DNA from: Streptomyces sp. TG1A-8
GTDB taxonomy: Bacteria; Actinomycetota; Actinomycetes; Streptomycetales; Streptomycetaceae
NCBI RefSeq assembly: GCF_030499535.1
Contig: NZ_JASTLB010000004.1
Span: 372,001 to 436,000, forward strand
Direction: 5' to 3'
Length of the DNA stretch: 64,000 bases
Within the stretch, counting starts at the first letter, position 1; each line of letters starts with the position of its first letter. Positions 2,411-64,000 of the stretch are shown here, in pieces. The notes under the pieces are model-generated. The model had not been told where the DNA came from, made no database searches, and was given only the letters and a program-made list of their open reading frames with translations. The translations under genes and the position numbers were made by a program.

Positions 2411-3761
2411 TTATACTCCAGCAGCGGTTCGTGGCCTGAGGTGCGTTTTCGGTAGTGGCAGCGGCGGGCGATGGCCTGGCGGTGTCTTCTCCAGGCGGAC
2501 CAGTTCAGTGCGTGGGTGATGGGATCGCGGTCGGCTCGTGGGTGGGGCAGGAGAGTGTCCAGGAGCCGCCGGATCTCTGCCACGGTGAGCGGGACGGTGG
2601 CTGATCCGTTTCTGCAGCCCCCTTTGCCTCCCCGCCGGCCTGGGCTTGTGCTGCGAGTGCGGCCAAGACGGCGTGGGCGAGCATGGCCAGGGTGATGTGC
2701 CGATACCAGCCGACATAGCGGCGGACTTCGTACTCGTCCAGGCCGCACTCGTTCTTCGCGGCCTGGAAGCACTCCTCGATCGCCCAGCGGGAGCCGGCGA
2801 TGCGGACCAGCTCGGCGATCTCGACACCCACGGGTGCGTAGGCCAGGTAGTAGGCCACATCTTCGGGGTCGGACAGGCTGCGGCGGGCCATCACCCACCG
2901 GTGATGGGTCGGCGGATCCGGATCGAAGATGATGTTGGCGGGCAACTTGGCCCCGGCCCAGTCGTAGATCCGCGGGCCCTTCGCCCCATCGCCGCAGGAC
3001 AGCCGCTGCCAGGCATCATCGGGTGCTTCATCGATGAGATGGTCGATGCGCCAGATGCCGGCCAGGGACTTGATCTGCTGGGACTTGGGCACCGCCACCA
3101 CGTAGCCGACGCCCGTCTGCTCGAGCAGGCGGCGGAAGTGCCAGTCCTGCCCGTAGGCCTCATCCGCGGTCACCCACGACGCCGGCAGGCCGGCGGCCAG
3201 GCAGCGGCGGACGATGTCCCGGGCCAGTTCCCCCTTGGTCGCAAAGCCTCGCCCGTCGGGGATCTTGGCCGCCCGGCAGCGGTCACGGTCGGACGTCCAG
3301 GCTTTGGGCAGGTAGAGCTCCCGGTCCACCAAGGCCCGGCCTGAGCTGGTGGCGTAGGCGGCGAACACGCCGATCTGACAGTTGTCGATCTTTCCTGAGG
3401 TGCCGGTGTACTGCCGACTGACCCCGGCTGAGGTGGTGCCCTTCTTGATGAATCCCGTGTCGTCGATGATCAGCACACCGCCCGGTCCGAGCCGTTCGGC
3501 GACGTAGGCACGGACGTCGTCACGCAGGGCGTCCGCGTCCCAGACACTGCTGTTCAGCAGCCGCTGAAAGCCGTCCGGAGTGCGGTGACCTGCCCATTCC
3601 GCAAGCTGCCAGCCGTTCTTGCGTGTCGCCCGCCCCAGCAGACCACGGACGTAGTCCCGCATCCGCCACCGCAGATCCGCCCGAGTGAACCTGCCCGCCA
3701 CCCGAGCGAACACCAACTCCAACTCGCCGGCCCAGCAAGCGGCTTCACTCATCCCCTCCAT
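2401..3761 (-). CDS. IS701-A transposase, copy 1 (needs -1 frameshift)
   Basis: The start is ATG 3761 (MEGMSEAACWAGELELVFARV). IS701-type DDE landmarks are visible: LIIDDTGFIKKG, SRQYTGTSGKIDNCQ, ASWVTADEAYGQD, and IEECFQAAKNECGLDEYEVR near the C terminus. The zero frame ends at 2505. The conserved C-terminal block (LTVAEIRRLLDTLLPH, ALNWSAWRRHRQAIARR) is in the -1 frame after an A3G5 run, as in all four copies. In this copy the flank is not YTAR, so the shifted frame lacks the usual stop at the element edge and runs three residues further (KNS) to 2401. Confidence 0.8.
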
Positions 3762-10003: not shown

Positions 10004-10855
10004 TTGTTCGAGGTGCGGCGGAACCTGGTCTGTCTGAGGAAGTCGAGTGGGCGGCACGCGCTGGTTTTCATCCATCCGGCAAGTGGGTCGGCCGCGTCGT
10101 TCCGCGCCTTGCAGCCACACCTCGGTTCGGACTGCTCCGTCTACGCTTTCCAGGCACCGGGCATCGACCCCGACCGCCCCCGCTCTATCGAAGGGATCGC
10201 AGAGACCTACTTCGCGGAGTTCCTGGCCGCTGACTCCCAATCGACCCCGATCTTCGTCGGGTGGTCCTTCAGCGGACCGGTCGCTGCGGAGATGGCGCGC
10301 CTTGGCGAGGAGCAGGGGCGAGCGCCTGCCGGCGTGATCCTCCTGGACAGCGCGACTCATGAGGTTCTGGGAGGCCGGACGACCGATCGCGCGACGGAGA
10401 TCGGCGGGCTCTTCGGGATAGACCTGTCCGGAACTGATGCCCGTGCGGTCGACGGACTGCTCGATCATGCGGCGGAGTTGATCGCCGCGGCGAGCGACAC
10501 CCCCGGTCTGACTGGTGCGGACCTGCGCCCCTTCTGGGATGTCTACGCCTGGCACCAAGGGATCTTCGACGACGGCTGGCAGGCCCGTCCGTGTGCCGCG
10601 CCGCTGCTGATGGTCCGGGCGCGGGACGAGACCGGGTGGAACGCGGGGCCCGACTGTCTCGGCTGGTCCGCGCTCGTGGGCCGTTCCATACCCGTCGTTT
10701 GGGCGCCAGGGACGCATTACACGCTGATGGACGACGGCCGGCTCGCCGAGGTCGCTCGCATCATTGACCGCGCGGTCGATGAGTGGACGGCGTCGCCGCA
10801 GGATCCAGCAGATCACTTTTCCCGACGATCGTCCGCCAAGCACTTCTCGTCATAA
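10004..10855 (+). CDS. Thioesterase of the NRPS/PKS TE type
   Basis: An alpha/beta-hydrolase protein of 283 aa. The sequence [20 protein letters not shown] and [10 protein letters not shown] are typical of terminal or stand-alone thioesterases of non-ribosomal peptide synthesis. The nucleophile elbow is FVGWSFSG (Ser88), a late Asp follows LLDSA, and the His is in APGTHYTLM. The annotated start is TTG 10004; GTG 10013 has better spacing from GAGAGGA. The frame is open back to about 9935, so this may be the surviving terminal domain of a longer synthetase cut at the 9949-9969 repeat. It lies 76 bp before clpP on the same strand. Confidence 0.75.
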
Positions 10856-10931
10856 GGCCATGCGTCGTACCGCAAGGCCCTTCACCACATTGATTACCAG
10901 GCCTCTCGTGAGGCCCATCAGGAGGAACAAC

Positions 10932-11588
10932 GTGAATCTCCGCCCGGCTACCCGCTCTGCCGTCCAACTGCCCCATGCCGAGGGGCGTTACGTGGTTCCG
11001 CGTTTCGTCGAGCGCACCGCACAGGGAGTCCGTGAATACGACCCCTACGCCAAGCTTTTCGAAGAGCGCATCATTTTCTTGGGCGTACAACTCGATGACG
11101 CGTCTGCCAACGACATCATGGCCCAGTTGGTGTGCCTGGAGTCGATGGATCCGGACCGGGACATCTCCATCTACATTAACAGTCCTGGCGGTTCCTTCAC
11201 CGCATTGACGGCCATTTACGACACCATGCAGTACGTGAAGCCCGACATTCAGACGGTGTGTCTTGGGCAGGCCGCTTCCGGTGCGGCCGTGCTTCTGGCG
11301 GCCGGCACTCCCGGAAAACGCATGGCCCTGCCCAGTGCGCGGGTTCTGATTCATCAGCCGTACGCCGAAACGGGTCGCGGCCAGGTTTCCGACCTGGAGA
11401 TCCAGGCGAACGAGATCCTGCGCATCCGGGCCCAGATGGAGGAGATGCTTGCCAAGCACTCCTCCACGCCGCTGGAGAAGATCCGCGAGGACATTGAACG
11501 GGACAAGATCCTCACTGCCGAGCAGGCCCTCGAGTACGGGCTCGTGGACCAGGTCGTCACACCCCGCTCCAGCCATTTGGGCGCCTGA
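10932..11588 (+). CDS. clpP: ATP-dependent Clp protease proteolytic subunit (extra ClpP)
   Basis: A 218-aa ClpP with GTG 10932 behind a perfect GGAGGA. Ser116 lies in [15 protein letters not shown], His141 in [10 protein letters not shown] and Asp191 in [12 protein letters not shown], giving an intact catalytic triad. The SPGGS oxyanion loop is near residues 84-88. It forms serine peptidase barrels that work with Clp ATPases in the cytoplasm. It stands alone without a second clpP or clpX, unlike the core Streptomyces clpP pairs, and follows a thioesterase gene. Extra ClpP copies protect producers of ClpP-targeting antibiotics such as acyldepsipeptides, which is a possible role here. Confidence 0.9.
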
Positions 11589-11629
11589 ATTCGACAGCCG
11601 ACGAACGCAAGGCGGGTGGTCAGTCCGTG

Positions 11630-11953
11630 ATGTTCCCAGAAGGTCCCCGGGTCCCGGCCCTCACCGAGGCGGAGAGCCAGGTAGTGGATGCATATGTGGC
11701 CGTGCTGAAACGTCTGAGCAGCGTCAACCCCAGCCAGACCACGGGCACGTACACGGCGCTCAGGGCAGCACAGGCGCTTGTCTCCGAGACACGGGCACTG
11801 CGTGACGCTCTTTCCCTCATGTTCGAGCGACACGAAAAAGAGATCCATGTACGCACGATGACCAAAGCCCTGGAATGCCTCGAGGGCGACCGCATCTTGC
11901 ACCGTCTCGGCCCGCCCCGGGACGGCCGCGCACTGCCCGATGCCCCTTCCTGA
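11630..11953 (+). CDS. Small helical protein downstream of clpP
   Basis: A 107-aa frame from ATG 11630 (GTG 11627 also possible), 41 bp after clpP and on the same strand. The sequence is rich in A, L, E and R and looks all-helical (AESQVVDAYVAVLKRLSS, ALVSETRALRDALSLMFERH). There is no signal peptide or membrane segment. I do not recognise the family. Its position suggests co-transcription with clpP; a partner or adaptor role is only a guess. Confidence 0.5.
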   Translation: MFPEGPRVPALTEAESQVVDAYVAVLKRLSSVNPSQTTGTYTALRAAQALVSETRALRDALSLMFERHEKEIHVRTMTKALECLEGDRILHRLGPPRDGRALPDAPS

Positions 11954-18509: not shown

Positions 18510-19013
18510 TCAGCCGTGGTAGGTGATGTAGCCGTTGCCGTCCTTGTCGTTGGTCTTCTTGGTGTACGAGTGGACGTCGGCGCGGGCGCCGGAGGGCTTG
18601 TAGAAGTAGATGGTGTCCTTGTCGTTGTTCCAGATGAAGTTGCAGTTCTGGCGGTAGACGACGTTCTTGGCGTCGGAGTCGGTGCCCTTGCCGCCGCGCA
18701 GGTGCACGTAGTCGCCGGGCTCGAGGGTGTGGCTGTTCTGGAAGGTGAACTTGTTGCCGGTGGCGTCCTTGACGACGTAACCCTTGAGGTTGACCTTCAC
18801 GGTCTTCGAGTAGTTCTTGATGGTCAGGTACTCGTTCCTGGTGTTCCCGCCGGAGCACTTGTTGGAGTCGGTGCCCGGTGCGTCGTACTGCACGCCCTTG
18901 ATCTTCAGCGCTGAGGAGTACTCGGTGGCCTGGGCCGGAACAGCCGCGGCCAGGCCGAGCGTGGCGACGGCCGCAGTGGCTGCGGCGGCATTCAGGGTGT
19001 GGCGGATCTGCAT
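18510..19013 (-). CDS. Secreted lamin-tail-domain protein
   Basis: A 167-aa protein from ATG 19013 with GGGGGGA upstream. Residues 1-29 form a Sec signal peptide (MQIRHTLNAAAATAAVATLG, then AVPAQA before TEYSS). The mature part is a single lamin-tail (LTD) beta-sandwich: LKIKGVQYDAPG, NEYLTIKNYSKTVKVNLKG, FTFQNSHTLEPGDYVHLRGG, ending DKDGNGYITYHG. Such domains occur in exported Streptomyces proteins and are thought to bind DNA or cell-surface ligands; the role here is unknown. A GC-rich hairpin near 18424-18447 may end the transcript. Confidence 0.85.
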   Translation of the reverse strand: MQIRHTLNAAAATAAVATLGLAAAVPAQATEYSSALKIKGVQYDAPGTDSNKCSGGNTRNEYLTIKNYSKTVKVNLKGYVVKDATGNKFTFQNSHTLEPGDYVHLRGGKGTDSDAKNVVYRQNCNFIWNNDKDTIYFYKPSGARADVHSYTKKTNDKDGNGYITYHG

Positions 19014-19409
19014 GAGGATTCCCCCCTCGGTGGTGCGAATGGAGCGTCCCGGAGCATACCGAAAATGTGATCACCGTACGGCGGAACGGTGATGGCTGCG
19101 TGAAGCGCAGTAGTAGCTCGCCGACAGCAAGCACTGACCGGAAAAGGAAGCACCATGTCGCCCCAGTGCCGGGTGGCTGTGGAAGGGCTCTGCCCGCTGT
19201 TCATCGGCGCAGTTGGCAGGCCGTGAGGCGAGACTGCGCGGCGGCGTTGATGTCGAGGCCCTTGCCGGCCGACTCGGCTGAAAGGCCATCGCCTTCAGCG
19301 GCGTAAGCGGCCTGGTGGCCAACACCACCGGCAAGCCACTCCAGTTCGCTCACGGCCCGCAGCGCCGCTACGGGCGCTTGGTCGATGAGCAGGGCGGGCT
19401 GTTCCTTTA
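19014..19409. other. Promoter region and unidentified remnant before IS5
   Basis: The first part should hold the promoter of the lamin-tail gene (minus strand). From about 19290 a plus-strand frame reads VANTTGKPLQFAHGPQRRYG then RLVDEQGGLFL and is cut by the IS5 at 19410. It looks like the end of a coding sequence but I cannot identify it. It does not match the IS701 sequence on the other side of the IS5. Confidence 0.35.
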
Positions 19410-20295
19410 CTGATCGTTTCAGAATGAAGTTCGTAGGCGGCGGATGCATATGAGGCTGCAGGCCAGTTCGAGCGGGCCCTGATGGAGATCCGCGCGTCGC
19501 TCGTAGCGGATGCGGAGCCGCTTGGACTGATGCAGCCAGGCGAAGGCGCGCTCGGCCACCCAGCGGACCTTGCCCAGTCCGGAACCGTGGGCGATGCCGC
19601 GTCGCGCGATCATGGGTTGGATGCCACGCTTGCACAGCAGGCGGCGGTACGTGTCGAAGTCGTAGCCGCGGTCGGCATACACCCGCCGTGGCTTGCGGCG
19701 AGGTCGTCCTCGCAGACCCCGGATCGGCGGGACCGCGTCCAGCACAGGCAGGAGTTGGGTGACATCGTGCCGGTTGCCGCCGGTGAGCGTCACGGCGAGA
19801 GGGGTTCCGTGACGATCGACGATCAGGTGGTGCTTGGGGCCGGGGCGGGCGCGGTCGACGGGTGAGGGGCCGACATGGTCCCCCCTTTCAGCGCCCGCAC
19901 GTGCGAGCCATCCACGGCACAGTCGTCGAGGTCCAGCAGGCCGGCTCGGCGCAGTTCATCGAGCAGGGCGGCGTGCAGGCGGGGCCAGACGCCGGCCTCG
20001 GTCCACTCCCGCAGCCGACGCCAGGCCGTCACTCCGGAGCAGCCCACGGTCTCCGCAGGGACATCGCGCCAGGCGACACCGGTCCGCAGTACGTACATGA
20101 CACCGGCGAGTGCGGCCCGGTCCGGAACACGCAGCCGTCCGGGGTGTCGGTGGCGCCGCTCGGGAACGGGCGGCAACAACGGAGCCACCCGCTCCCACAG
20201 GTCGTCAGGCACAAGATCAGCACGCACCCCGGACACTCTGCCGATCAAGATCGCCAAGCACAAGACCACAGCCCAACTCATTCTGAAACGATCAG
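19410..20295 (-). mobile_element. IS5-family element (886 bp)
   Basis: The terminal repeats CTGATCGTTTCAGAATGA are near perfect. The flanks are TA at 19408-19409 and 20296-20297. The right flank lies inside an IS701-type gene while the left flank is unrelated, so an adjacent deletion probably followed insertion. Confidence 0.8.
19419..20227 (-). CDS. IS5-family transposase (two frames)
   Basis: Frame one starts at GTG 20227 (VRADLVPDDLWERVAPLLPP) and carries the first Asp in CAVDGSHVRALKGG. Frame two continues PVDRARPGSKHHLIVDRHG, then ADRGYDFDTYRRLL and VAERAFAWLHQSKRLRIRYE, ending at 19419. The switch lies at an A3G6 run near 19886. Both parts are intact, so the protein can be made by frameshifting as in IS427-type elements. 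Confidence 0.8.
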
Positions 20296-35222: not shown

Positions 35223-36620
35223 TACTCCAGCAGCGGTTCGTGTCCTGAGCTGGTGGTTGTCGTTGTCCTGGTATGGAGGGGATGAGTGAAGCCGCTTGCT
35301 GGGCCGGCGAGTTGGAGTTGGTGTTCGCTCGGGTGGCGGGCAGGTTCACTCGGGCGGATCTGCGGTGGCGGATGCGGGACTACGTCCGTGGTCTGCTGGG
35401 GCGGGCGACACGCAAGAACGGCTGGCAGCTTGCGGAATGGGCAGGTCACCGCACTCCGGACGGCTTTCAGCGGCTGCTGAACAGCAGTGTCTGGGACGCG
35501 GACGCCCTGCGTGACGACGTCCGTGCCTACGTCGCCGAACGGCTCGGACCGGGCGGTGTGCTGATCATCGACGACACGGGATTCATCAAGAAGGGCACCA
35601 CCTCAGCCGGGGTCAGTCGGCAGTACACCGGCACCTCAGGAAAGATCGACAACTGTCAGATCGGCGTGTTCGGCGCCTACGCCACCAGCTCAGGCCGGGC
35701 CTTGGTGGACCGGGAGCTCTACCTGCCCAAAGCCTGGACGTCCGACCGTGACCGCTGCCGGGCGGCCAAGATCCCCGACGGGCGAGGCTTTGCGACCAAG
35801 GGGGAACTGGCCCGGGACATCGTCCGCCGCTGCCTGGCCGCCGGCCTGCCGGCGTCGTGGGTGACCGCGGATGAGGCCTACGGGCAGGACTGGCACTTCC
35901 GCCGCCTGCTCGAGCAGACGGGCGTCGGCTACGTGGTGGCGGTGCCCAAGTCCCAGCAGATCAAGTCCCTGGCCGGCATCTGGCGCATCGACCATCTCAT
36001 CGATGAAGCACCCGATGATGCCTGGCAGCGGCTGTCCTGCGGCGATGGGGCGAAGGGCCCGCGGATCTACGACTGGGCCGGGGCCAAGTTGCCCGCCAAC
36101 ATCATCTTCGATCCGGATCCGCCGACCCATCACCGGTGGGTGATGGCCCGCCGCAGCCTGTCCGACCCCGAAGATGTGGCCTACTACCTGGCCTACGCAC
36201 CCGTGGGTGTCGAGATCGCCGAGCTGGTCCGCATCGCCGGCTCCCGCTGGGCGATCGAGGAGTGCTTCCAGGCCGCGAAGAACGAGTGCGGCCTGGACGA
36301 GTACGAAGTCCGCCGCTATGTCGGCTGGTATCGGCACATCACCCTGGCCATGCTCGCCCACGCCGTCTTGGCCGCACTCGCAGCACAAGCCCAGGCCGGC
36401 GGGGAGGCAAAGGGGGCTGCAGAAACGGATCAGCCACCGTCCCGCTCACCGTGGCAGAGATCCGGCGGCTCCTGGACACTCTCCTGCCCCACCCACGAGC
36501 CGACCGCGATCCCATCACCCACGCACTGAACTGGTCCGCCTGGAGAAGACACCGCCAGGCCATCGCCCGCCGCTGCCACTACCGAAAACGCACCTCAGGC
36601 CACGAACCGCTGCTGGAGTA
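35223..36620 (+). mobile_element. IS701-A, copy 2 (1398 bp)
   Basis: Ends identical to the other copies, with perfect TTAG duplications at 35219-35222 and 36621-36624. The right TTAG is shared with copy 3, giving a head-to-tail tandem. Confidence 0.9.
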
Positions 36621-36624: not shown

Positions 36625-38022
36625 TACTCCAGCAGCGGTTCGTGTCCTGAGCTGGTGGTTGTCGTTGTCCTGGTATGGAGGGGATGAGTGAAGCCGCTTG
36701 CTGGGCCGGCGAGTTGGAGTTGGTGTTCGCTCGGGTGGCGGGCAGGTTCACTCGGGCGGATCTGCGGTGGCGGATGCGGGACTACGTCCGTGGTCTGCTG
36801 GGGCGGGCGACACGCAAGAACGGCTGGCAGCTTGCGGAATGGGCAGGTCACCGCACTCCGGACGGCTTTCAGCGGCTGCTGAACAGCAGTGTCTGGGACG
36901 CGGACGCCCTGCGTGACGACGTCCGTGCCTACGTCGCCGAACGGCTCGGACCGGGCGGTGTGCTGATCATCGACGACACGGGATTCATCAAGAAGGGCAC
37001 CACCTCAGCCGGGGTCAGTCGGCAGTACACCGGCACCTCAGGAAAGATCGACAACTGTCAGATCGGCGTGTTCGCCGCCTACGCCACCAGCTCAGGCCGG
37101 GCCTTGGTGGACCGGGAGCTCTACCTGCCCAAAGCCTGGACGTCCGACCGTGACCGCTGCCGGGCGGCCAAGATCCCCGACGGGCGAGGCTTTGCGACCA
37201 AGGGGGAACTGGCCCGGGACATCGTCCGCCGCTGCCTGGCCGCCGGCCTGCCGGCGTCGTGGGTGACCGCGGATGAGGCCTACGGGCAGGACTGGCACTT
37301 CCGCCGCCTGCTCGAGCAGACGGGCGTCGGCTACGTGGTGGCGGTGCCCAAGTCCCAGCAGATCAAGTCCCTGGCCGGCATCTGGCGCATCGACCATCTC
37401 ATCGATGAAGCACCCGATGATGCCTGGCAGCGGCTGTCCTGCGGCGATGGGGCGAAGGGCCCGCGGATCTACGACTGGGCCGGGGCCAAGTTGCCCGCCA
37501 ACATCATCTTCGATCCGGATCCGCCGACCCATCACCGGTGGGTGATGGCCCGCCGCAGCCTGTCCGACCCCGAAGATGTGGCCTACTACCTGGCCTACGC
37601 ACCCGTGGGTGTCGAGATCGCCGAGCTGGTCCGCATCGCCGGCTCCCGCTGGGCGATCGAGGAGTGCTTCCAGGCCGCGAAGAACGAGTGCGGCCTGGAC
37701 GAGTACGAAGTCCGCCGCTATGTCGGCTGGTATCGGCACATCACCCTGGCCATGCTCGCCCACGCCGTCTTGGCCGCACTCGCAGCACAAGCCCAGGCCG
37801 GCGGGGAGGCAAAGGGGGCTGCAGAAACGGATCAGCCACCGTCCCGCTCACCGTGGCAGAGATCCGGCGGCTCCTGGACACTCTCCTGCCCCACCCACGA
37901 GCCGACCGCGATCCCATCACCCACGCACTGAACTGGTCCGCCTGGAGAAGACACCGCCAGGCCATCGCCCGCCGCTGCCACTACCGAAAACGCACCTCAG
38001 GCCACGAACCGCTGCTGGAGTA
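36625..38022 (+). mobile_element. IS701-A, copy 3 (1398 bp)
   Basis: Directly follows copy 2 with only TTAG between them. The right TTAG (38023-38026) was later split by an IS5 insertion. Confidence 0.9.
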
Positions 38023-38899: not shown

Positions 38900-40251
38900 T
38901 TAGTACTCCAGCAGCGGTTCGTGGCCTGAGGTGCGTTTTCGGTAGTGGCAGCGGCGGGCGATGGCCTGGCGGTGTCTTCTCCAGGCGGACCAGTTCAGTG
39001 CGTGGGTGATGGGATCGCGGTCGGCTCGTGGGTGGGGCAGGAGAGTGTCCAGGAGCCGCCGGATCTCTGCCACGGTGAGCGGGACGGTGGCTGATCCGTT
39101 TCTGCAGCCCCCTTTGCCTCCCCGCCGGCCTGGGCTTGTGCTGCGAGTGCGGCCAAGACGGCGTGGGCGAGCATGGCCAGGGTGATGTGCCGATACCAGC
39201 CGACATAGCGGCGGACTTCGTACTCGTCCAGGCCGCACTCGTTCTTCGCGGCCTGGAAGCACTCCTCGATCGCCCAGCGGGAGCCGGCGATGCGGACCAG
39301 CTCGGCGATCTCGACACCCACGGGTGCGTAGGCCAGGTAGTAGGCCACATCTTCGGGGTCGGACAGGCTGCGGCGGGCCATCACCCACCGGTGATGGGTC
39401 GGCGGATCCGGATCGAAGATGATGTTGGCGGGCAACTTGGCCCCGGCCCAGTCGTAGATCCGCGGGCCCTTCGCCCCATCGCCGCAGGACAGCCGCTGCC
39501 AGGCATCATCGGGTGCTTCATCGATGAGATGGTCGATGCGCCAGATGCCGGCCAGGGACTTGATCTGCTGGGACTTGGGCACCGCCACCACGTAGCCGAC
39601 GCCCGTCTGCTCGAGCAGGCGGCGGAAGTGCCAGTCCTGCCCGTAGGCCTCATCCGCGGTCACCCACGACGCCGGCAGGCCGGCGGCCAGGCAGCGGCGG
39701 ACGATGTCCCGGGCCAGTTCCCCCTTGGTCGCAAAGCCTCGCCCGTCGGGGATCTTGGCCGCCCGGCAGCGGTCACGGTCGGACGTCCAGGCTTTGGGCA
39801 GGTAGAGCTCCCGGTCCACCAAGGCCCGGCCTGAGCTGGTGGCGTAGGCGGCGAACACGCCGATCTGACAGTTGTCGATCTTTCCTGAGGTGCCGGTGTA
39901 CTGCCGACTGACCCCGGCTGAGGTGGTGCCCTTCTTGATGAATCCCGTGTCGTCGATGATCAGCACACCGCCCGGTCCGAGCCGTTCGGCGACGTAGGCA
40001 CGGACGTCGTCACGCAGGGCGTCCGCGTCCCAGACACTGCTGTTCAGCAGCCGCTGAAAGCCGTCCGGAGTGCGGTGACCTGCCCATTCCGCAAGCTGCC
40101 AGCCGTTCTTGCGTGTCGCCCGCCCCAGCAGACCACGGACGTAGTCCCGCATCCGCCACCGCAGATCCGCCCGAGTGAACCTGCCCGCCACCCGAGCGAA
40201 CACCAACTCCAACTCGCCGGCCCAGCAAGCGGCTTCACTCATCCCCTCCAT
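38900..40251 (-). CDS. IS701-A transposase, copy 4
   Basis: Zero frame from ATG 40251 to 38995. The -1 frame after the A3G5 run continues to TAC TAA at 38900, so the stop again uses the flank (CTAA on this strand). The landmarks are the same as in the other copies and no damage is seen. Confidence 0.85.
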
Positions 40252-56173: not shown

Positions 56174-57220
56174 GTGGACGACGTAGTCGTCGGCGCCTTC
56201 CTTCGTGCCGCACGCGAGCGGGCCGACATCTCCCCGGCCCGAGCCGCCGCCTACCTCAAACTGCCCGAGACACGGATCCGCCGCCTGGAGGCCGGCCGGG
56301 CGGCGTGGTCCCACGCGCACGCGCTGGCCCTGACCCGCTGCTACGGGCTCGCCGACGAGGACCCGGACGGGCTGGAGCGGCTGCTCGCTTGCGAGCACCG
56401 GCACGTCGTGGCCGACTTTGGCGCGGGCCGATACCGGCGGCTGGCCGCAGTGGAGGCCCGAGCCACGCGGATCCGCGTCGCCTCGCGCACCGTGCCGGCC
56501 TTACTCCACGGATCGGGGACACCACAGCAGACCGGGCACGCGACCGCACCGGAGCAACGGCGATTGCCCGACGACTGCCCGGTCACTCTGTTGTGGGACG
56601 AATTCGCTCTCGAATGCGGCTGTGTTGACGCGCCGCGTACCGCCGCTCGCCTACGCCACCTGGCCGCCATGGTCGACGCCGGAGTACTGCACTTCCGTCT
56701 GCTGGTCCCCGACTTCACCGTCTGGTCCGAACCGGTCGGCACCGAACTCACCCTCGACACCGGACCGGTCGTGTTCGCCGACGAGCAACTGCCGTTGACG
56801 GTCACCTACAGCACCGGGCCCAAAGCCGGGTGGAAGACCTCGTCCCTCGACCGGCAACTCGCGGCGGCCCTCAGCGCCGAGGACTCTTTGGCCGCACTGC
56901 ACCGCGCCGCCACGCAGTGGGGGATCGCGCATGACCACAGCCGCCATGCCCCGCACCGCCTCCGCCCCCGTGCCGGCCCCGCTGTCCGCCAGCAACACAG
57001 TCCCCCGCCGCGCCACGGCATCGGGCCCGCGGCCAGAATCCGCGAGGACCGCGCCCCCCATGCGCAGCGCACGCCCCTGGCAGCACGATCCGCTGCTCTC
57101 GACTCTGCGAGACGTCGGTGGCTGCATGGCCGTCATCGCGATGGGCGTGCTGATCACCGTGCTCGTATGTGCAGCGCACGCCTCGTGGCCACCAGCGCAT
57201 CCAACTTCCAGCCCCGTTGA
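56174..57220 (+). CDS. Second XRE-family regulator (Scr1-like), uncertain C terminus
   Basis: GTG 56174 opens the conserved part (VDDVVVGAFLRAARERADIS); the frame is open back to 56057. HTH: PARAAAYLKLPETRIRRLEA. Then a Scr1-like domain (FGAGRYRRLAAVEARATRIR, DCPVTLLWDEFALECGCVDA, GVLHFRLLVPDFTVWSEPVG). After about 56930 the sequence becomes low-complexity (Arg/His/Pro) and overlaps another plausible gene. The true end may therefore be earlier, or a frameshift may have extended it. It is a diverged neighbour of the upstream regulator. Confidence 0.65.
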   Translation: MDDVVVGAFLRAARERADISPARAAAYLKLPETRIRRLEAGRAAWSHAHALALTRCYGLADEDPDGLERLLACEHRHVVADFGAGRYRRLAAVEARATRIRVASRTVPALLHGSGTPQQTGHATAPEQRRLPDDCPVTLLWDEFALECGCVDAPRTAARLRHLAAMVDAGVLHFRLLVPDFTVWSEPVGTELTLDTGPVVFADEQLPLTVTYSTGPKAGWKTSSLDRQLAAALSAEDSLAALHRAATQWGIAHDHSRHAPHRLRPRAGPAVRQQHSPPPRHGIGPAARIREDRAPHAQRTPLAARSAALDSARRRWLHGRHRDGRADHRARMCSARLVATSASNFQPR

Positions 57221-57248
57221 CCACCACATCTCGCAGGGCCAGCGATGA
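56931..57248 (+). CDS. Small membrane protein overlapping the regulator
   Basis: A 105-aa frame from ATG 56931 with a Pro/Ala/Ser-rich N terminus and one hydrophobic segment (CMAVIAMGVLITVLVCAAHA). Third-position GC is high in this frame, which favours it over the regulator frame in the overlap. No known family. It might be an anchored partner of the regulator. Confidence 0.45.
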   Translation: MTTAAMPRTASAPVPAPLSASNTVPRRATASGPRPESARTAPPMRSARPWQHDPLLSTLRDVGGCMAVIAMGVLITVLVCAAHASWPPAHPTSSPVDHHISQGQR

Positions 57249-57613
57249 CCGCCATCTGCGCAGCCTCACATCCTTCGGTGCCTCCGCCCCACCCAGGCCG
57301 ATATCTCGTCCGGGCACAGCCTTGCGGTCACGAGGCGGCAGGAGGCCGTAGCGGGTGCCCGCGATGCCGGCGTAACGGGGCGAGGAAGAGCCGCCGTATA
57401 GCCATCGGTCTTGACGGCTCCCTGCACGGTTGTGCTCCCGCCCGCCCCGGCCCCGGGGCGGGCAGAGACGGCCGCTCGGATCCAAGTCCGCGGCCAACGG
57501 CGTCCGCCATTCGTTCCAGCCGCGCGCTCCCCGGCGGCACGGGCCTTGCGCTCGTTGTTGTCGCGGCCGCGCGAAGGGCTGCCACGGGTTCGTGGCGGGT
57601 GGGAAGGCGCAGT
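57249..57613. other. Intergenic segment
   Basis: Between two convergent transcription units. It is GC-rich with several short inverted repeats but no acceptable coding frame and no clear T-rich terminator. Confidence 0.4.
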
Positions 57614-58942
57614 TCAGACTGCGGCTTTGACCAGGAGTTCAGGAACGCCCTCCGCGTCGCTGAATGCCTCGAATCGCGGGACGAGTCCGCGCACGAGTTC
57701 AACGCAACGGGGGGCGCCGATACGGCTAGCGAGGTCCAGGGACTTGGATGCAGCGGCTGCGGCGACGTCGGGCTCGCCCCGGTCAAGGTGCGTTTTGGCG
57801 CGGTATGCGAGGAAGACTCCGCGGGTTTTGTCCCGGCTGGGCGGAAGCAGGTTCTGGCCTTCCTCGATGAGCTGGTGGGCCCGGCGGGTTTCGCCCAGGT
57901 CGCTGAGGCTCTGCCCGGAGTCGACGGCGAGGTCCGCCTCGGAGAGCCAGGAGCACCACGCAGGAACGGGATCGGGGGTCGGCACGCCGAGAAGCAGCTC
58001 GGCAGCACTCAGGGCCCGCAGAGTGGCGCGCCGCTCGCCCTGGGCAGCCAGGGCGCGTGCAAGGCGGAGGTGGAGCAGGGACCGGGCGGCGGGGTGCCGG
58101 GTGCGGGTCAGAGCGCGTTCCAGGATGCGGGCGGCCGTGCGAGGGTCATTGCGCCAGGATGCCTGGTAGGCGAGGTCGCTCAGGAGTGCGGCGCCCATGT
58201 CGTGGTCGCCGCTGGCGTAAGCACTGTGGAGGCCGGCGATCCAGAAGCGGCCGGCTTCACCGTGGCGCCCGTGGTCGAAGCGGTGCCAGGCCACGGTCTG
58301 GGCGAGGCTGGCGGCTAAGGCGTGGAGCCGGAGGCCGAGGGCCGGGAAATAGCGCCCCTCGGCGATCAGGTCGGTCACGGTCGCCAGGTGGGCGTCGATC
58401 AGTGGAGCGGTGTGCTGCCGTTCCCGAGTGGCCAGGGTGGTCAGCCGCGCGCTGGTTTCCTCCAGCACGGCGACAAGTCCCTCGCCGACGCCTTTGCCCT
58501 GGACGCGCTCGAGGACTTGCGGCCCTGTGTCGGTACTCGCCCAGGCACCGGCCAAGGTGATCAGGGCCGTGCCGGAGATCGCGGACAGGATGGTACGGCG
58601 GGATCGATCCATCGATGCTCTCAATGCCTCTCGAAGGGCTGGCACGGTGCTGGCGGGCCCCAGGCGGACGACGCCGACGTCGGGCAGCCAGTTCGGCCAC
58701 GACCCCACGTCGACGTTCTCAAGGGGGACTCCGAATACCTCGGCGATGTACTCCTGGGACTCCCGGTCAGGTCTGACCCCGGCGACCTCCCACTTGCGGA
58801 CACGCTGTTTGTCCACGCCCGACCGCAGGCCGCGGCGCTCCGCCGCCGCGCAGATCCCCCGGGCCAAGTCAACGCCGGTCATACCCCACGCGCCACGTAC
58901 GAGTGCCAAGGGGTGGATGTTGTCCGCCACTCCATCATCCAA
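57614..58942 (-). CDS. XRE/TPR-type regulator
   Basis: A 442-aa protein from the start at 58942. N-terminal helix-turn-helix (MTGVDLARGICAAAERRGLR, VDKQRVRKWEVAGVRPDRES, EYIAEVFGVPLENVD). One hydrophobic stretch (TILSAISGTALITLAGAWAS) separates it from TPR-like helices (EAGRFWIAGLHSAYASGDHD, RTAARILERALTRTRHPAAR). The architecture is the same as the regulator at 41732. It is divergent from the unusual 59171-64000 gene series and is the best candidate for its regulator. Confidence 0.8.
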   Translation of the reverse strand: MDDGVADNIHPLALVRGAWGMTGVDLARGICAAAERRGLRSGVDKQRVRKWEVAGVRPDRESQEYIAEVFGVPLENVDVGSWPNWLPDVGVVRLGPASTVPALREALRASMDRSRRTILSAISGTALITLAGAWASTDTGPQVLERVQGKGVGEGLVAVLEETSARLTTLATRERQHTAPLIDAHLATVTDLIAEGRYFPALGLRLHALAASLAQTVAWHRFDHGRHGEAGRFWIAGLHSAYASGDHDMGAALLSDLAYQASWRNDPRTAARILERALTRTRHPAARSLLHLRLARALAAQGERRATLRALSAAELLLGVPTPDPVPAWCSWLSEADLAVDSGQSLSDLGETRRAHQLIEEGQNLLPPSRDKTRGVFLAYRAKTHLDRGEPDVAAAAASKSLDLASRIGAPRCVELVRGLVPRFEAFSDAEGVPELLVKAAV

Positions 58943-59016
58943 TCAGCAGCACCAGCGCTGAGCGTAGCCGTGAACCGGCCGGGACTACCGCGGGGACTAC
59001 CGACAACTCCTTGGGT

Positions 59017-59029
59017 AACTGCGGCAGTT
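59017..59029. promoter_or_regulatory. Perfect dyad AACTGC-G-GCAGTT
   Basis: A 13-bp palindrome in the 228-bp divergent promoter region, inside a larger imperfect ACAACT...AGTTGT dyad. Likely operator for the TPR regulator. Confidence 0.45.
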
Positions 59030-59170
59030 GTTCGACACTCGGTCATTGGATCGACCTCCCAGGATGCGGCGTTCGCGTCATGTATCCCCGGACGGAGCCG
59101 GCCTGTCCACGTCCCCGAGGAGCGATGACGCTCCTGTGCGTGTCGCGCAAGGTGAGAAATGGAGGCCTAG

Positions 59171-60418
59171 ATGAACCCGGACAGTACCTATTGGATGAAC
59201 TACGTCATTGGAGTAGCGCAAAGGGACTCACAATCAGGTCGGCGGGTCGGTGTTGCGCTCGTTTCACAACACGACGAGTTGATTTGCTCCGCGTTCGATG
59301 GCGAAGTGCGCGGCGCATCCTGGTTCCGCGTTCTGCGGCGCAGGATTCAAGAACTCGGAATCGCCAGTGCTCACAGCGCCTACCTGACGATCAACACCCT
59401 GTCGGGAGCCGGGTCGTTCGAGCTGGCCGAGCTCTTGAGCGCCGTGCGGATCGACAAGGTGTACGTCGGTCTGCCGGACCCCGCGCTGACGAACTACCTC
59501 AGTGGCGACCCCGTCACCGAGCGAGGCCATGTACTCCGCTTCCCCGACGATCTTCAGCGCCAGATCCTTGTCCAGAATCGGGACCTCTACGCGGCGAGCG
59601 AGCAGAGCATCGACTGCAACCCCCACTACTCCACCCATCGCATCAGCGAAGCCGTCTCCACCAGGCTGATGGCAATGGGATTCGCAGTGACCAGGAGCGA
59701 CGTCAACGCGCACCGGGGGAGGGTTGCGCTCGCCTCGCTCATCTGCAAGAGGTACGGGACCGAGTACCAAGAGGCTGAGCGCGCCGTAGGCGACGCACTG
59801 GCCGCAGCGTTCGACGCGAAGTACGGCACCTACGACTACGCGTACGACGCTCGCGCCGCCAACGCGGGGTGGGTCGACGACTTCATGGCGGTTTACAGGA
59901 TGTCGTCCACAAGGCCCCTGACTGCCGCCAGCATCCTCAACGTAGGCGTCGGTGCCGGCCACGAAGCGGCGGCCCTGTTCTCCGACTGCCCGCGGATCAC
60001 CTTCGCCGATATCGCGGAAAGCGGCCTCGCGAACATAAGCAGACGCATTCCCTTATCGAGAACCGTCGTCTCCAGCGCAGAAGACCTGTCCGCCCTGCCG
60101 GGCGACAGTTTCGATCTGTATGTCTCATTGAGGACGTACAATTCGTCATTCTTCGACACGTCTGCAGCAGCCTCGGAGGCACACAGAGTACTGAAGCCCG
60201 GCGCGGTGATTATCGTCTCCGTGGCCAACGGATTTCTGTATACTCAGCGGGGCTGCGTCGTGCCGGGACTGATCATCCCCGGCACTGAATTCGTCGACAT
60301 TTATCGCGGGATGGACACCGCCAATCTAATTGGTGCGGAGCTCGACAGTGTCGACTTCAAAGACGTCCGAATATTCCCAACAAGTACCGAGATTTACCTT
60401 TCGGCGGTCGCCGCCTAA
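59171..60418 (+). CDS. RibD-like deaminase domain (no zinc site) fused to SAM methyltransferase
   Basis: A 415-aa protein from ATG 59171 with GGAGG upstream. Residues 1-145 follow the cytidine/RibD deaminase layout: WMNYVIGVAQRDSQSGRRVG, then TINTLSGAGSFELAELLSAV and KVYVGLPDPALTNYL, with QILVQNRDLYA at the end. The HAE and PCxxC zinc motifs are absent. Residues 240-360 are a class I methyltransferase (SILNVGVGAGHEAAALF, RITFADIAESGL, HRVLKPGAVIIVSVANGFLY). It probably binds a pyrimidine-like substrate and methylates it or a linked group. It is first in a four-gene series. Confidence 0.7.
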   Translation: MNPDSTYWMNYVIGVAQRDSQSGRRVGVALVSQHDELICSAFDGEVRGASWFRVLRRRIQELGIASAHSAYLTINTLSGAGSFELAELLSAVRIDKVYVGLPDPALTNYLSGDPVTERGHVLRFPDDLQRQILVQNRDLYAASEQSIDCNPHYSTHRISEAVSTRLMAMGFAVTRSDVNAHRGRVALASLICKRYGTEYQEAERAVGDALAAAFDAKYGTYDYAYDARAANAGWVDDFMAVYRMSSTRPLTAASILNVGVGAGHEAAALFSDCPRITFADIAESGLANISRRIPLSRTVVSSAEDLSALPGDSFDLYVSLRTYNSSFFDTSAAASEAHRVLKPGAVIIVSVANGFLYTQRGCVVPGLIIPGTEFVDIYRGMDTANLIGAELDSVDFKDVRIFPTSTEIYLSAVAA

Positions 60419-60532
60419 CGTTGCCGCCGCCCCCCGGCCGGCCGCGGACCAGTTCCGCGGGAAGGCTGGATCGCAGACAGCCGGGGCGACCGGTCGGTCT
60501 GGAGCGACCAGCGTGAAGGAAGGACTTCTGCA

Positions 60533-61249
60533 ATGAACGGGCGAACGACCGTTGCTGATCGGATCCTGCAGTTCAACGAGGAACTCGCGGAGACGACGCT
60601 TGAACTGCCGCCTGGATTCGCGGTCGTCAACCCGTTCAGCGGCCCGCAGAGGGAGCGCGTCCGCGAGGTGACGACTGCGTTCTACCGCAAGTATTACGAC
60701 GACGACAGGCCGCGCCGTCTGGTGCTTGGGAGTTCGCCCGCTCGACGGGGCACGGCCGTGACCGGGGTCCCGTTCGAGGACGCCAAGCTCCTCGAAAGCG
60801 AAACGGGAGTCGATGTCGACGGCTATGCGGTGAGCCGGCCCTCCGCCGGATTCCTGCACGATGTCATCAGGCGCTACGGGGGCCGCGAAAGGTTTTACGC
60901 CGACTTCGTCATGAGCTTTGTCTGCCCTCTCGGCCTGGTGAAAAAAAGCCCCCAGGGAAGAGAGGTCAACTGCAACTACTACGAGAACAAGAAGCTGTTG
61001 GAACTCCTGGACTCTTTCCTCCTGAAATCCCTTGAGCGCCAGCTGACATTCGGAATCGACGCCTCGGTGTGCTACTGCATCGGCAGCGGCGACAACTTCT
61101 CGTTCCTCTCGAAAGTGAACGAGGGCCAGCGCTTCTTCAAAAAGATCGTACCCTTGGAGCATCCGCGCTTCATCACGCAATACAACGGCGGCAGAAAGGA
61201 GGAATTCGCCGAGAAATACCTCCGTGCTCTGCGCGGAGAAGGCGACTAG
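60533..61249 (+). CDS. SMUG2/DUF4918-type uracil-DNA glycosylase-like protein
   Basis: A 238-aa protein from ATG 60533, with GAAGGAAGGA upstream. Landmarks are GFAVVNPFSGPQRERVREVT, RRLVLGSSPARRGTAVTGVP (active-site loop region), VCPLGLVKKSPQGREVNCNY and VPLEHPRFITQYNGGRKEEF, where HPR is the second glycosylase motif. This agrees with the single-domain SMUG2-like family (DUF4918). Members excise uracil or related bases, or bind a nucleobase. It lies 114 bp after the deaminase/methyltransferase fusion. Confidence 0.75.
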   Translation: MNGRTTVADRILQFNEELAETTLELPPGFAVVNPFSGPQRERVREVTTAFYRKYYDDDRPRRLVLGSSPARRGTAVTGVPFEDAKLLESETGVDVDGYAVSRPSAGFLHDVIRRYGGRERFYADFVMSFVCPLGLVKKSPQGREVNCNYYENKKLLELLDSFLLKSLERQLTFGIDASVCYCIGSGDNFSFLSKVNEGQRFFKKIVPLEHPRFITQYNGGRKEEFAEKYLRALRGEGD

Positions 61250-61337
61250 CTGTGCTGCCCACAGCGCCTCCCTCGGCTGACTCCCCGCAGGTTGAGGACT
61301 CCCAACGCGACGGATCGAGAAGAAGGAGAACAGCACA

Positions 61338-62117
61338 GTGATGACAAAGAGCAAGGTCCTGGTCCACTTCGGCTCGGAACGCGTCAGCGTCTACCGCCAC
61401 CAGAGCGGCGAGCTGAGCCTGCTCACCAGGGAGCGGCTTCCGTTCGGAGTCGGCCTCGCCGGCGAGGCGCTGGCGGACAGCGTCAGCGAGTTCTGCACCG
61501 GGCTCAAGGAGTTCACCGAGGTCGTCGACAACAAGAACACGCGAGTGCACGCCACCGGGGTCTTCCAGCGGCTCCCACACTCGGAAGCGAACGCGCTGGT
61601 CAACAGCGTCTACGTCGACACGGGCCTCTACTTCAACATCGTGGGGCCTGAGCTGGAGCAGTTCTATCTGGACACGGGCATGTCCGCATGTGGTTCGAGC
61701 GACATGGTGGAAGGCCTGATCCGGAGGGAGTTACGGACGGCCGTCGTCTGCGGCAGCTTCCAGCAGTGCCTGGGGGACATCGAGGGCGTCATCACCCAGC
61801 TGCGCGAAACCGGCACCGAGGTGCTCAGCCCGCGCAGCACCAGGATCAAGCCGGAAACCGAGGGCACCGACTTCATCCTCTTCGACTACCAGGATGTGCT
61901 GAAGAACGAACGCGACACGTGGCGGCACAAGTACGTGCACATGGACGCGTTCCGGCGAGCCGACGCTGTCATCGTGTGCAACCCGGGCGGTCGCGTCGGA
62001 AGCGGCACCGTCTTCGAGCTCGGCTTCATGTCCGCGCTCGCCAAGAAGGTGATCTTCACGGAGGAGCCCCAAGGCGTGTCCGTCCTCTTCCCCTGCGAGG
62101 TGGGCCTGGGTTCCTGA
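61338..62117 (+). CDS. Ppx/GppA-like domain fused to nucleoside 2-deoxyribosyltransferase-like domain
   Basis: A 259-aa protein; GTG 61338 has AAGGAG at good spacing, ATG 61341 is possible. Residues 1-125 resemble the first half of Ppx/GppA phosphatases (VHFGSERVSVYRHQSGELSL, NTRVHATGVFQRLPHSEANA, FNIVGPELEQFYLDTGMSA). Residues 130-259 fit a nucleoside 2-deoxyribosyltransferase fold: TAVVCGSFQQCLGDIEGVIT, HMDAFRRADAVIVCNPGGRV, SGTVFELGFMSALAKKVIFT, including the AD-x-V/I and E-L-G motifs. A base-exchange or base-release role is inferred. Confidence 0.65.
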   Translation: MMTKSKVLVHFGSERVSVYRHQSGELSLLTRERLPFGVGLAGEALADSVSEFCTGLKEFTEVVDNKNTRVHATGVFQRLPHSEANALVNSVYVDTGLYFNIVGPELEQFYLDTGMSACGSSDMVEGLIRRELRTAVVCGSFQQCLGDIEGVITQLRETGTEVLSPRSTRIKPETEGTDFILFDYQDVLKNERDTWRHKYVHMDAFRRADAVIVCNPGGRVGSGTVFELGFMSALAKKVIFTEEPQGVSVLFPCEVGLGS

Positions 62118-62273
62118 GCACACCCGCTGAGGGCCGCGGCACCCCGCCCCGTCGCAGCCCTGACTGGATCGCGTTTCGACGAACGCAGTCCCGTCAGCAG
62201 GTCCTCAGCTCACCCTCTCTCTGCCCCCAGATCCCGCTGCTCGGCTTCGACGATTGGGAAAGGACCCTCGCTG

Positions 62274-64000
62274 GTGGAACCCATCGACATAGTGTCCGAC
62301 AGGCTGCGAGCGATCGTGGCGTCTGTCCTTGAGCTGGACGAGGCAGCCATCGACCCTGGTGCCCTGTTCTACGAGGAACTCGGCATGAGCTCCTTGGAGA
62401 AGGCCGAGGTCGTGATCGCGATCGAGCGCGAGTTCGGAGCCCTGTCCGTGGAAGACGCGGCAGCCCTCACCAGCCTGGATGCCGCGGTGGCCGTGCTCGG
62501 CCGGCGGGCGACGAGTACCCAGGGCGCTGACCTAATCGACCTCCTGGTGGCGGGTCATGTCTCCGCCGGCCGGGGTGACCGGGCGAGCTACCACGACCCC
62601 GAGGCCGGGGAGATCACCTACGCGGGCCTCCTGGAGGCAGCACGCGGGTACGCCGGCGCCCTGCGGACAGCAGGCGTGCCCGAGGGCGCCCGCGGCCTCC
62701 TGGTCACGGACGACTCCGTGGCGACCGTGGTCGCCGTCCTCGGCCTGTGGTGGCACGGCTGCGTCCCCGTGGTGATGAGCCCGCTGCTCACGGACGACGA
62801 GGTCCGCTACATCGCCGCCGACTGCGCCGCAGCAGTGGTGCACCTCGACGCCGCCCCCCAGCGGCAGCGCGCTCTGGAGGAGCTGTTCGCGACGACCACC
62901 CGGTTCGCAGGCACCGACGTCCGCGCCGGCCTGGCGACCGCCGAGGCCGGTCCCGCACGGCGCCCGGAGGACGCTGGGGCACCGGCCGCGTGGAGCAGGG
63001 AGCGGGAGGCGCTGGTGCAGTACACCTCCGGAAGCACCGGCATGCCCAAGGGGGTGCGGCACTCAGCGGGCGCGATCGCGGCCATGGCCGACGGCATCGG
63101 CGCGGTCTTGGCGCTGACGCCCGAGGACACCGTGCTGTCCACTGCTCGGCTCTCTTTCGGCTACGGGTTCGGCAGTTCCGTCCTGTGCCCCCTGGCGGCA
63201 GGGGCCCGCGTCGCACTCCTGCGAGGCACCGTCGACGTCCACACCCTCGCCGCCGCGATGCAGCGCCACAGGCCCACCGTGTTGTTCTCCGTCCCCCGGC
63301 TGTACGCGGCGCTGCTGAACGTTGGACCGGAGCTCGCCCCCGACTCCGTGCGGCTGTGCGTGTCGGCGGGCGAGAACCTGGCCGGTCCGCTCAGCGAGCG
63401 GATCCGCACCGCCTTCCAGGCCGAGCTGCTCAACGGCCTCGGCGCCACCGAGGTCCTCCACATCGTCGTCGGCACCCCGCCAGGGGAGGACCACCTGGGC
63501 ACCCTCGGAGTCCCGGTGCCCGGAGTCACCGCGACCGTCCGCGCCGCGGACGGCACGCCCGTCACCGAGGGCCAGGAGGGCCGGCTGCACATCGCCGGCC
63601 CGACCGTCGCCCTCGGCTACATCGGCCGCCCTGAGGCCGCAGCGCTCACCTTCGCCGACGGCGGCGCCTACACCGGCGACATGGTGCGCCGCGCGCCGGA
63701 CGGCACGTTCACCTACCTCTGCCGCGCTGATGACCTGCTCAACCTGGGCGGGTACAAGGTCGTTCCCAGCGAGATCGAGAGCGTCATCCGCGGCGTCGAC
63801 GGGGTCCGGGACTGTGTGGTGGTCGGCGGCCGCGACGTGGATGGCCTGGAGCAGGCCGTGGCGTATCTGGTGGCCCGGCCGGGATCTGACGGGGCCGTGG
63901 TGCGGCGCGCGGTGACCGCCGCGATCCGCGGCGGTCTCGCCGCCTTCAAGCGGCCCGCCCGTCTGGAATTTTTGGACGATCTGCCGACCACGTCGACCGG
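62274..64000 (+). CDS. Acyl carrier domain fused to AMP-forming acyl ligase (partial)
   Basis: GTG 62274 with AGGA 9 nt upstream; the frame is open to the window end, so the C terminus is not seen. Residues 1-75 are an acyl carrier domain with the phosphopantetheine Ser in EELGMSSLEKAEVVIAIE. From about residue 85 an ANL-type ligase follows: the P loop LVQYTSGSTGMPKGV, STARLSFGYGFGSSVLCPLA, LNGLGATEVLHIVVGTPPGE, YTGDMVRRAPDGTFTYLCRA and DDLLNLGGYKVVPSEIESVI. It resembles benzoate-CoA-ligase-type enzymes and may activate an (aryl) acid onto its own carrier domain. Confidence 0.8.
   Translation, partial: MEPIDIVSDRLRAIVASVLELDEAAIDPGALFYEELGMSSLEKAEVVIAIEREFGALSVEDAAALTSLDAAVAVLGRRATSTQGADLIDLLVAGHVSAGRGDRASYHDPEAGEITYAGLLEAARGYAGALRTAGVPEGARGLLVTDDSVATVVAVLGLWWHGCVPVVMSPLLTDDEVRYIAADCAAAVVHLDAAPQRQRALEELFATTTRFAGTDVRAGLATAEAGPARRPEDAGAPAAWSREREALVQYTSGSTGMPKGVRHSAGAIAAMADGIGAVLALTPEDTVLSTARLSFGYGFGSSVLCPLAAGARVALLRGTVDVHTLAAAMQRHRPTVLFSVPRLYAALLNVGPELAPDSVRLCVSAGENLAGPLSERIRTAFQAELLNGLGATEVLHIVVGTPPGEDHLGTLGVPVPGVTATVRAADGTPVTEGQEGRLHIAGPTVALGYIGRPEAAALTFADGGAYTGDMVRRAPDGTFTYLCRADDLLNLGGYKVVPSEIESVIRGVDGVRDCVVVGGRDVDGLEQAVAYLVARPGSDGAVVRRAVTAAIRGGLAAFKRPARLEFLDDLPTTST

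Follow-up and report, generated by a model that had tools for sequence, protein, structure and literature searches.

A stretch of 64,000 nucleotides (the window; 372001-436000 on a contig of Streptomyces sp. TG1A-8 that measures 518,462 bases) carries at positions 59171-64000 four intact genes in one direction (A-D), as the earlier note on this DNA had stated, and these genes open an operon that extends beyond base 64000. Genes A-G, together with gene I, usually gene H and often a NUDIX hydrolase gene (J), may form one uncharacterised biosynthetic operon for an aryl-ketide and a methylated or released nucleobase; we place the probability of this reading at roughly 40%. The cluster probably makes an undescribed natural compound. 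The gene set was not found in the open-licence literature searched, an absence that is weak evidence, and to that extent agrees with the earlier note, which knew of no described pathway or defence system of this kind. The DNA past the window end (stretch L009), where further biosynthetic genes had been suspected, was examined and contains genes E, F and G. The genes are as follows.

59171-60418, plus strand: gene A, deaminase-like domain of RibD type that lacks the zinc ligands, followed by a class I S-adenosylmethionine (SAM) methyltransferase
60533-61249, plus strand: gene B, SMUG2-like protein of the uracil-DNA glycosylase (UDG) superfamily
61338-62117, plus strand: gene C, half Ppx/GppA domain and DNPH1/NDT/MilB-type N-glycosidase domain
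62274-64000, plus strand, cut by the window edge (whole at L009:274-2046): gene D, acyl carrier protein (ACP)-AMP ligase, benzoate-CoA-ligase-like
L009:2043-3179: gene E, ketosynthase (KS)
L009:3176-4198: gene F, KS-like partner
L009:4195-5202, taking the ATG at 4195 as start: gene G, ACP-thioesterase
L009:5292-5678, minus strand, opposite to the operon: gene I, small protein
L009:6152-7252: gene H, aminoglycoside phosphotransferase (APH)-type kinase

For the analysis of gene order, 30 loci were given, four of which were dropped as duplicates, leaving 26 non-redundant loci; L024 (a 3.4 kb contig with C-D-E only) and L060 (the same place as L022) stood outside this comparison. The order A-B-C-D-E-F-G-I was found in 24 of the 26 loci, all of them from Streptomyces or Kitasatospora, which bears out the idea that the genes are a conserved unit. 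The polyketide half (D-G) was present in each of these 24 Streptomycetaceae loci. H occurred at 22 of the 26 loci and J at 14, and J was not found at the window's own locus. Three of the 24 loci have an extra 1.4-1.8 kb between E and F or between F and G. The matched A-G stretches were free of stops in 18 of the 24, and the remaining six had stops only close to where F ends. Compared with the query copy, median identity ranged from 77% (C, G) up to 90% (I); for I, J, K, M, N and O the query was taken from L025 (in the case of I), L026 or L028 and not from the window.

The protein distances between copies are correlated across the two halves of the cluster (C-D 0.73, A-D 0.64, A-F 0.55), values which were reached by none of 500 permutations, and are correlated most strongly within the halves (A-B 0.79, F-G 0.80). 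The latter result would also suit two unrelated functions joined by linkage, with A-B-C as a mobile nucleotide-metabolism cassette and D-G as an ordinary aryl-ketide pathway, and the layout of the genes points the same way. A-C are separate cistrons with gaps of 114, 88 and 156 bases, whereas 4-base overlaps join D/E, E/F and F/G (with the start of G at 4195), and the GC content is 59-65% for A-C versus 69-74% for D-G at the two loci checked. We nevertheless consider mere linkage very unlikely, because the order is fixed over 24 loci, on chromosome-sized contigs as well as on plasmids, because divergence is correlated across the halves, and because A, B and C are absent from all nine sister polyketide synthase (PKS) loci tested (L084-L092). 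Furthermore, the three Streptomyces genomes that have an F orthologue without C have truncated or broken sets.

Full-length C was found in 11 of 392 Streptomyces genomes, each of which also has D-G, and an F orthologue (at least 74% identity) in 14 of the 392. The three genomes with F and without C comprise two in which D is partial and one with none of A-E in the fetched stretch. Weak C matches covering residues 128-252 only, in three Streptomyces genomes (G033, G142 and G384; best E 1e-8 to 1e-9), were taken for other NDT-type proteins and not counted. Six PLSDB plasmids gave a C match: the set is complete on five (F and G being annotated on one of these as a single coding sequence), and the sixth has fragments of C and B only. 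On a seventh plasmid E is split, F, G, I and H are present and no A-C are annotated; further copies lie on chromosome-sized contigs. Elsewhere, at E 1e-20, C was detected in one of 396 phylum-sample genomes (its own), in one of 289 in the class of the alphaproteobacterial genome G392 (itself) and in one of 249 in the family of the Saccharothrix genome G393 (itself). Since these wider scans matched only genomes already counted, loci with A-B-C alone number two.

The N-terminus of A (approximately residues 1-144) has the RibD-type deaminase fold and residues 205-415, approximately, form the methyltransferase. We take the zinc-ligand motifs of RibD-type deaminases to be H-A-E and PCxxC. In a 20-row alignment the first site reads x-G-E (G in 19 rows and S in one, E in all 20) and the second N-T-[LMIV]-[SA]. 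Judged by these residues, the domain is a predicted pseudo-RibD.

B aligns with the SMUG2 structure 5h0j over residues 6-234, that is, near its whole length (E 4e-63). Motif 2 is kept, with H210-P211-R212 invariant in all 15 aligned proteins. Motif 1 reads GSSPAR in the same 15 proteins, compared with GINPGR in SMUG2; the Asn of GINPG is presumably the catalytic residue of SMUG enzymes, and in view of GSSPAR we do not class B as an active SMUG2. Stand-alone Listeria relatives (P0347, P0355) also bear GSSPAR. A stand-alone SMUG2-type gene with 59% identity to B lies near mnmE/mnmG in Listeria monocytogenes (L048:8001-8708).

C consists of half a Ppx/GppA domain (approximately residues 4-132) and an N-glycosidase domain (approximately 133-259) of superfamily Pfam PF05014, whose fold and nucleophilic Glu are present; the nucleophile, Glu227, is invariant. 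The mean pLDDT (predicted local distance difference test) of the model was 77, with residues 183-196 below 50. About 125 N-terminal residues align to Ppx/GppA (4-132 or 4-155 in the model), short of the catalytic region of about 300 residues in two subdomains. C gave no Pfam Ppx-GppA match, nor did the Ppx gene of L022 match it by profile, so that the link to Ppx is one of modelled fold only. At the site of the general-acid Asp (D80 in DNPH1, D78 in MilB), spacing places an invariant His201, in a region where the printed hidden Markov model (HMM) alignment is shifted. DNPH1, a hydrolase of 5'-nucleotides, is at least as good a match for the second domain as a deoxyribosyltransferase is. The folds named in the earlier note (deaminase-like with methyltransferase, SMUG2-like, Ppx-like with deoxyribosyltransferase-like) are supported, while the loss of zinc ligands, the changed motif 1 and the DNPH1 likeness of C had been missed.

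Among solved structures D is closest to benzoate-CoA ligases (2v7b, E 1e-73), which upholds the view of the fourth gene as acid-activating; its score with the benzoate-CoA ligase model TIGR02262 was 318 bits, below the cut-off of 375. D has its own ACP and is by homology a predicted aryl-acid (benzoate-type) ligase. E is related to the KS structure 6kxd (E 2e-43), which we take to be the ishigamide KS. Neither E with the AmcF model (181 of 325 bits) nor F with the AmcG model (26 of 80 bits) reached the curated NCBIfam cut-offs, and Pfam shows no C-terminal KS domain in F.

In eight of the sister loci D, E and F are all present, with identities of 50-71%; the ninth has only E and F, at 45-51%. 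The sister clusters on plasmids of KN37, NBC_01471 and NBC_01340 and at L084 share the order AMP ligase-KS-KS, with 61-70% identity for E. Among the sister clusters whose neighbours were examined, two contain genes for 3-deoxy-D-arabino-heptulosonate-7-phosphate (DAHP) synthase, an anthranilate synthase-like protein, isochorismatase and 2,3-dihydro-2,3-dihydroxybenzoate dehydrogenase, and another has a nitrosuccinate lyase (above cut-off), an AvaA6-like diazotase/ligase (below cut-off) and ThyX. We read these routes as 3-hydroxyanthranilate- and avenalumate-like. Because D is benzoate-ligase-like and the three sister clusters examined look aminohydroxybenzoate-related, an aryl starter for D is likely. 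The ThyX gene (flavin-dependent thymidylate synthase) lies at L098:13136-13966, within the aryl-ketide cluster that has the nitrosuccinate lyase.

In the biosynthetic reading, D would adenylate a small (amino/hydroxy)benzoate-type aryl acid and load it onto its own ACP, E and its partner F would add one or few malonyl units, and G would free the chain. A nucleobase would be provided or modified by A-B-C. In A, the methyltransferase would methylate a nucleobase or nucleotide bound by the RibD-like domain, itself catalytically dead; in C, the DNPH1/MilB-like domain would cleave the N-glycosidic bond of a 5'-nucleotide to give the modified base; and the altered SMUG2 protein B would hold or process the freed base. 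The outcome would be an aryl-ketide and a methylated nucleobase, either linked to each other or produced side by side. The gene content, order and co-occurrence, the residue changes and, as predictions, the folds are shown, whereas all reactions, the starter and the product are inferred; the acylated nucleoside suggested in the earlier note stays a conjecture. A bolder form of this idea, which we regard as conceivable and doubtful, is that A-B-C is a self-contained nucleobase machine acting on an unusual nucleotide, which was traded between Alphaproteobacteria and Actinomycetota and captured in Streptomycetaceae by an aryl-ketide pathway, giving a new class of nucleobase-polyketide hybrids. 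A nucleoside salvage operon was dropped as a candidate, because no kinase/phosphorylase gene set surrounds the cluster in the annotated loci.

Several observations weigh against a biosynthetic operon of this kind. What speaks most strongly against a purely biosynthetic role is the separability of A-B-C: the three genes occur without an orthologous ligase or KS in Saccharothrix (L021) and in an alphaproteobacterium (L022). The best D and E matches in the Saccharothrix genome reach 34-35% and 34-36%, and a distant I (48% over part) is present at L021; the alphaproteobacterial genome has no D match and a best E match of 36% over part of the protein. The unit can thus exist apart from the polyketide genes and can work without an aryl-ketide. 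In addition, no obvious base-acyl ligase or transporter was seen among the genes conserved in the 26-locus comparison, the general-acid Asp of C may be replaced by His201, and the GSSPAR change is not specific to this pathway, as far as can be judged from the motif shared with the stand-alone Listeria proteins. The thioesterase of G comes closest to type II editing enzymes, RifR among them, and two KS clusters that are more distant (52-54%) differ in make-up and have no adjacent AMP ligase. Across the halves G shows lower correlations (B-G 0.31, a value that 8 of 500 permutations reached), and for I no clear correlation with any gene emerges (0.13-0.30, values that 20-104 of the 500 reached).

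At L022, A-B-C (49-60% identity) are preceded by a Ppx gene and an HhH-GPD glycosylase gene; a type III restriction gene and an SNF2 helicase gene lie upstream, and open reading frames (ORFs) that by eye look phage-structural lie downstream. The Ppx/GppA-type and HhH-GPD genes (L022:6398-7985) are separated by 7 bases, and the ORF of the glycosylase shares about 11 bases with the A ORF, a spacing that suggests a five-gene operon. These surroundings fit a nucleotide-based defence or stress module, in which A-B-C would detect or alter nucleotides when a phage infects the cell and, in Streptomyces, the polyketide half would make the effector or signal. The scattered occurrence (11 of 392 Streptomyces genomes) and a stand-alone relative of B in four Listeria phage records of INPHARED, which was not searched for A and C, point in the same direction. 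On the other hand, the polyketide half accompanies A-B-C in all 24 Streptomycetaceae loci, PADLOC (2023 only) run on A-H returned solely mad2 (26 bits) and MTase_II (10 bits), both weak methyltransferase matches on A, and non-exhaustive peptide-pattern scans of IMG/VR confirmed no relatives of A, B or C. PHROGs gave nothing useful for A-C. The phage defence proposed as an alternative in the earlier note is therefore weakened, although the L022 neighbourhood and the Listeria phage relatives of B still speak for it; its case comes mainly from one locus, L022, and we think it quite unlikely.

DNPH1 and SMUG1 sanitise hydroxymethyl-deoxyuridine in human cells. By analogy, D-G might make a genotoxic or antimetabolite compound, against which A-B-C, I and the NUDIX proteins would protect the cell by removing damaged nucleotides, C and NUDIX from the pool and B from DNA. 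We find this attractive but judge it unlikely: motif 1 of B is without the Asn, which is catalytic in SMUG enzymes, in all 15 aligned proteins, A has a methyltransferase that sanitation does not need, A-B-C occur without polyketide genes at L021 and L022, and the window's locus has given no J.

An NsdA-family tetratricopeptide-repeat (TPR) protein (57614-58942, minus strand; NCBIfam NF053720, E 1e-90) is encoded divergently and is a candidate regulator only; being present at 4 of the 26 loci, it is not core. At 8 of the 26 loci a helix-turn-helix (HTH)-peptide deformylase fusion with 94% median identity, which may be a regulator, is divergent and upstream of A (e.g. L026:6095-7564). No RNA families were found at 57000-64000. 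Gene I (129 amino acids) looks by eye like a small nucleoside-hydrolase-type protein and had no Pfam match at cut-off and no PHROGs match. A truncated NUDIX remnant (L009:7338-7541) adjoins the cluster end, which suggests erosion. Repeated 418-amino-acid ORFs, apparently of one transposase, flank the region:

L009:8377-9633, 10656-11912 and 19008-20000: copies beyond the window, whose translations agree
35273-36529, 36675-37931, 38995-40251 and 2505-3761: copies in the window, matched by length only

If A, B and C are enzymes, they would methylate and release a nucleobase in a new manner, and we know of no earlier biosynthetic operon that employs a rewired uracil-DNA-glycosylase fold. If they serve self-protection, the SMUG/DNPH1-like pair would join the known DNA-glycosylase self-resistance proteins. 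With 24 natural copies and two relatives having A-B-C only, both ideas are directly testable, and the broken copies and those without A-C are natural controls.

Compared with known systems, B matches SMUG2 (5h0j) over residues 6-234 and differs from it in motif 1. The human DNPH1-SMUG1 pair differs from the present genes in that motif 1 of B is altered, C is fused to a Ppx half and a methyltransferase and a PKS are linked here. The sister clusters of KN37, NBC_01471, NBC_01340 and L084 have aryl-supply or diazo genes of their own, and the nine sister loci tested have no A, B or C. According to passages of PMC10698177, the cispentacin KS pair AmcF/AmcG makes a single C2 extension and cyclises; the AmcB/F/G/H system (type II PKS-like KS and cyclisation factor) shares with D-F an ACP loaded by an AMP ligase, a KS with a partner lacking KS motifs, and a short extension. 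It differs in that AmcH takes 2-oxoglutarate while D is benzoate-ligase-like, and the AmcF and AmcG scores lie under the cut-offs. In the mildiomycin and bacimethrin routes, as described in part of PMC4081090, MilB releases 5-hydroxymethylcytosine from hydroxymethyl-CMP. C has a Ppx half domain and apparently a His in the place of MilB Asp78, and its sequence match to MilB/NDT is insignificant (E 0.6), but it shares with these N-glycosidases of nucleoside antibiotics the superfamily PF05014 and the nucleophilic Glu.

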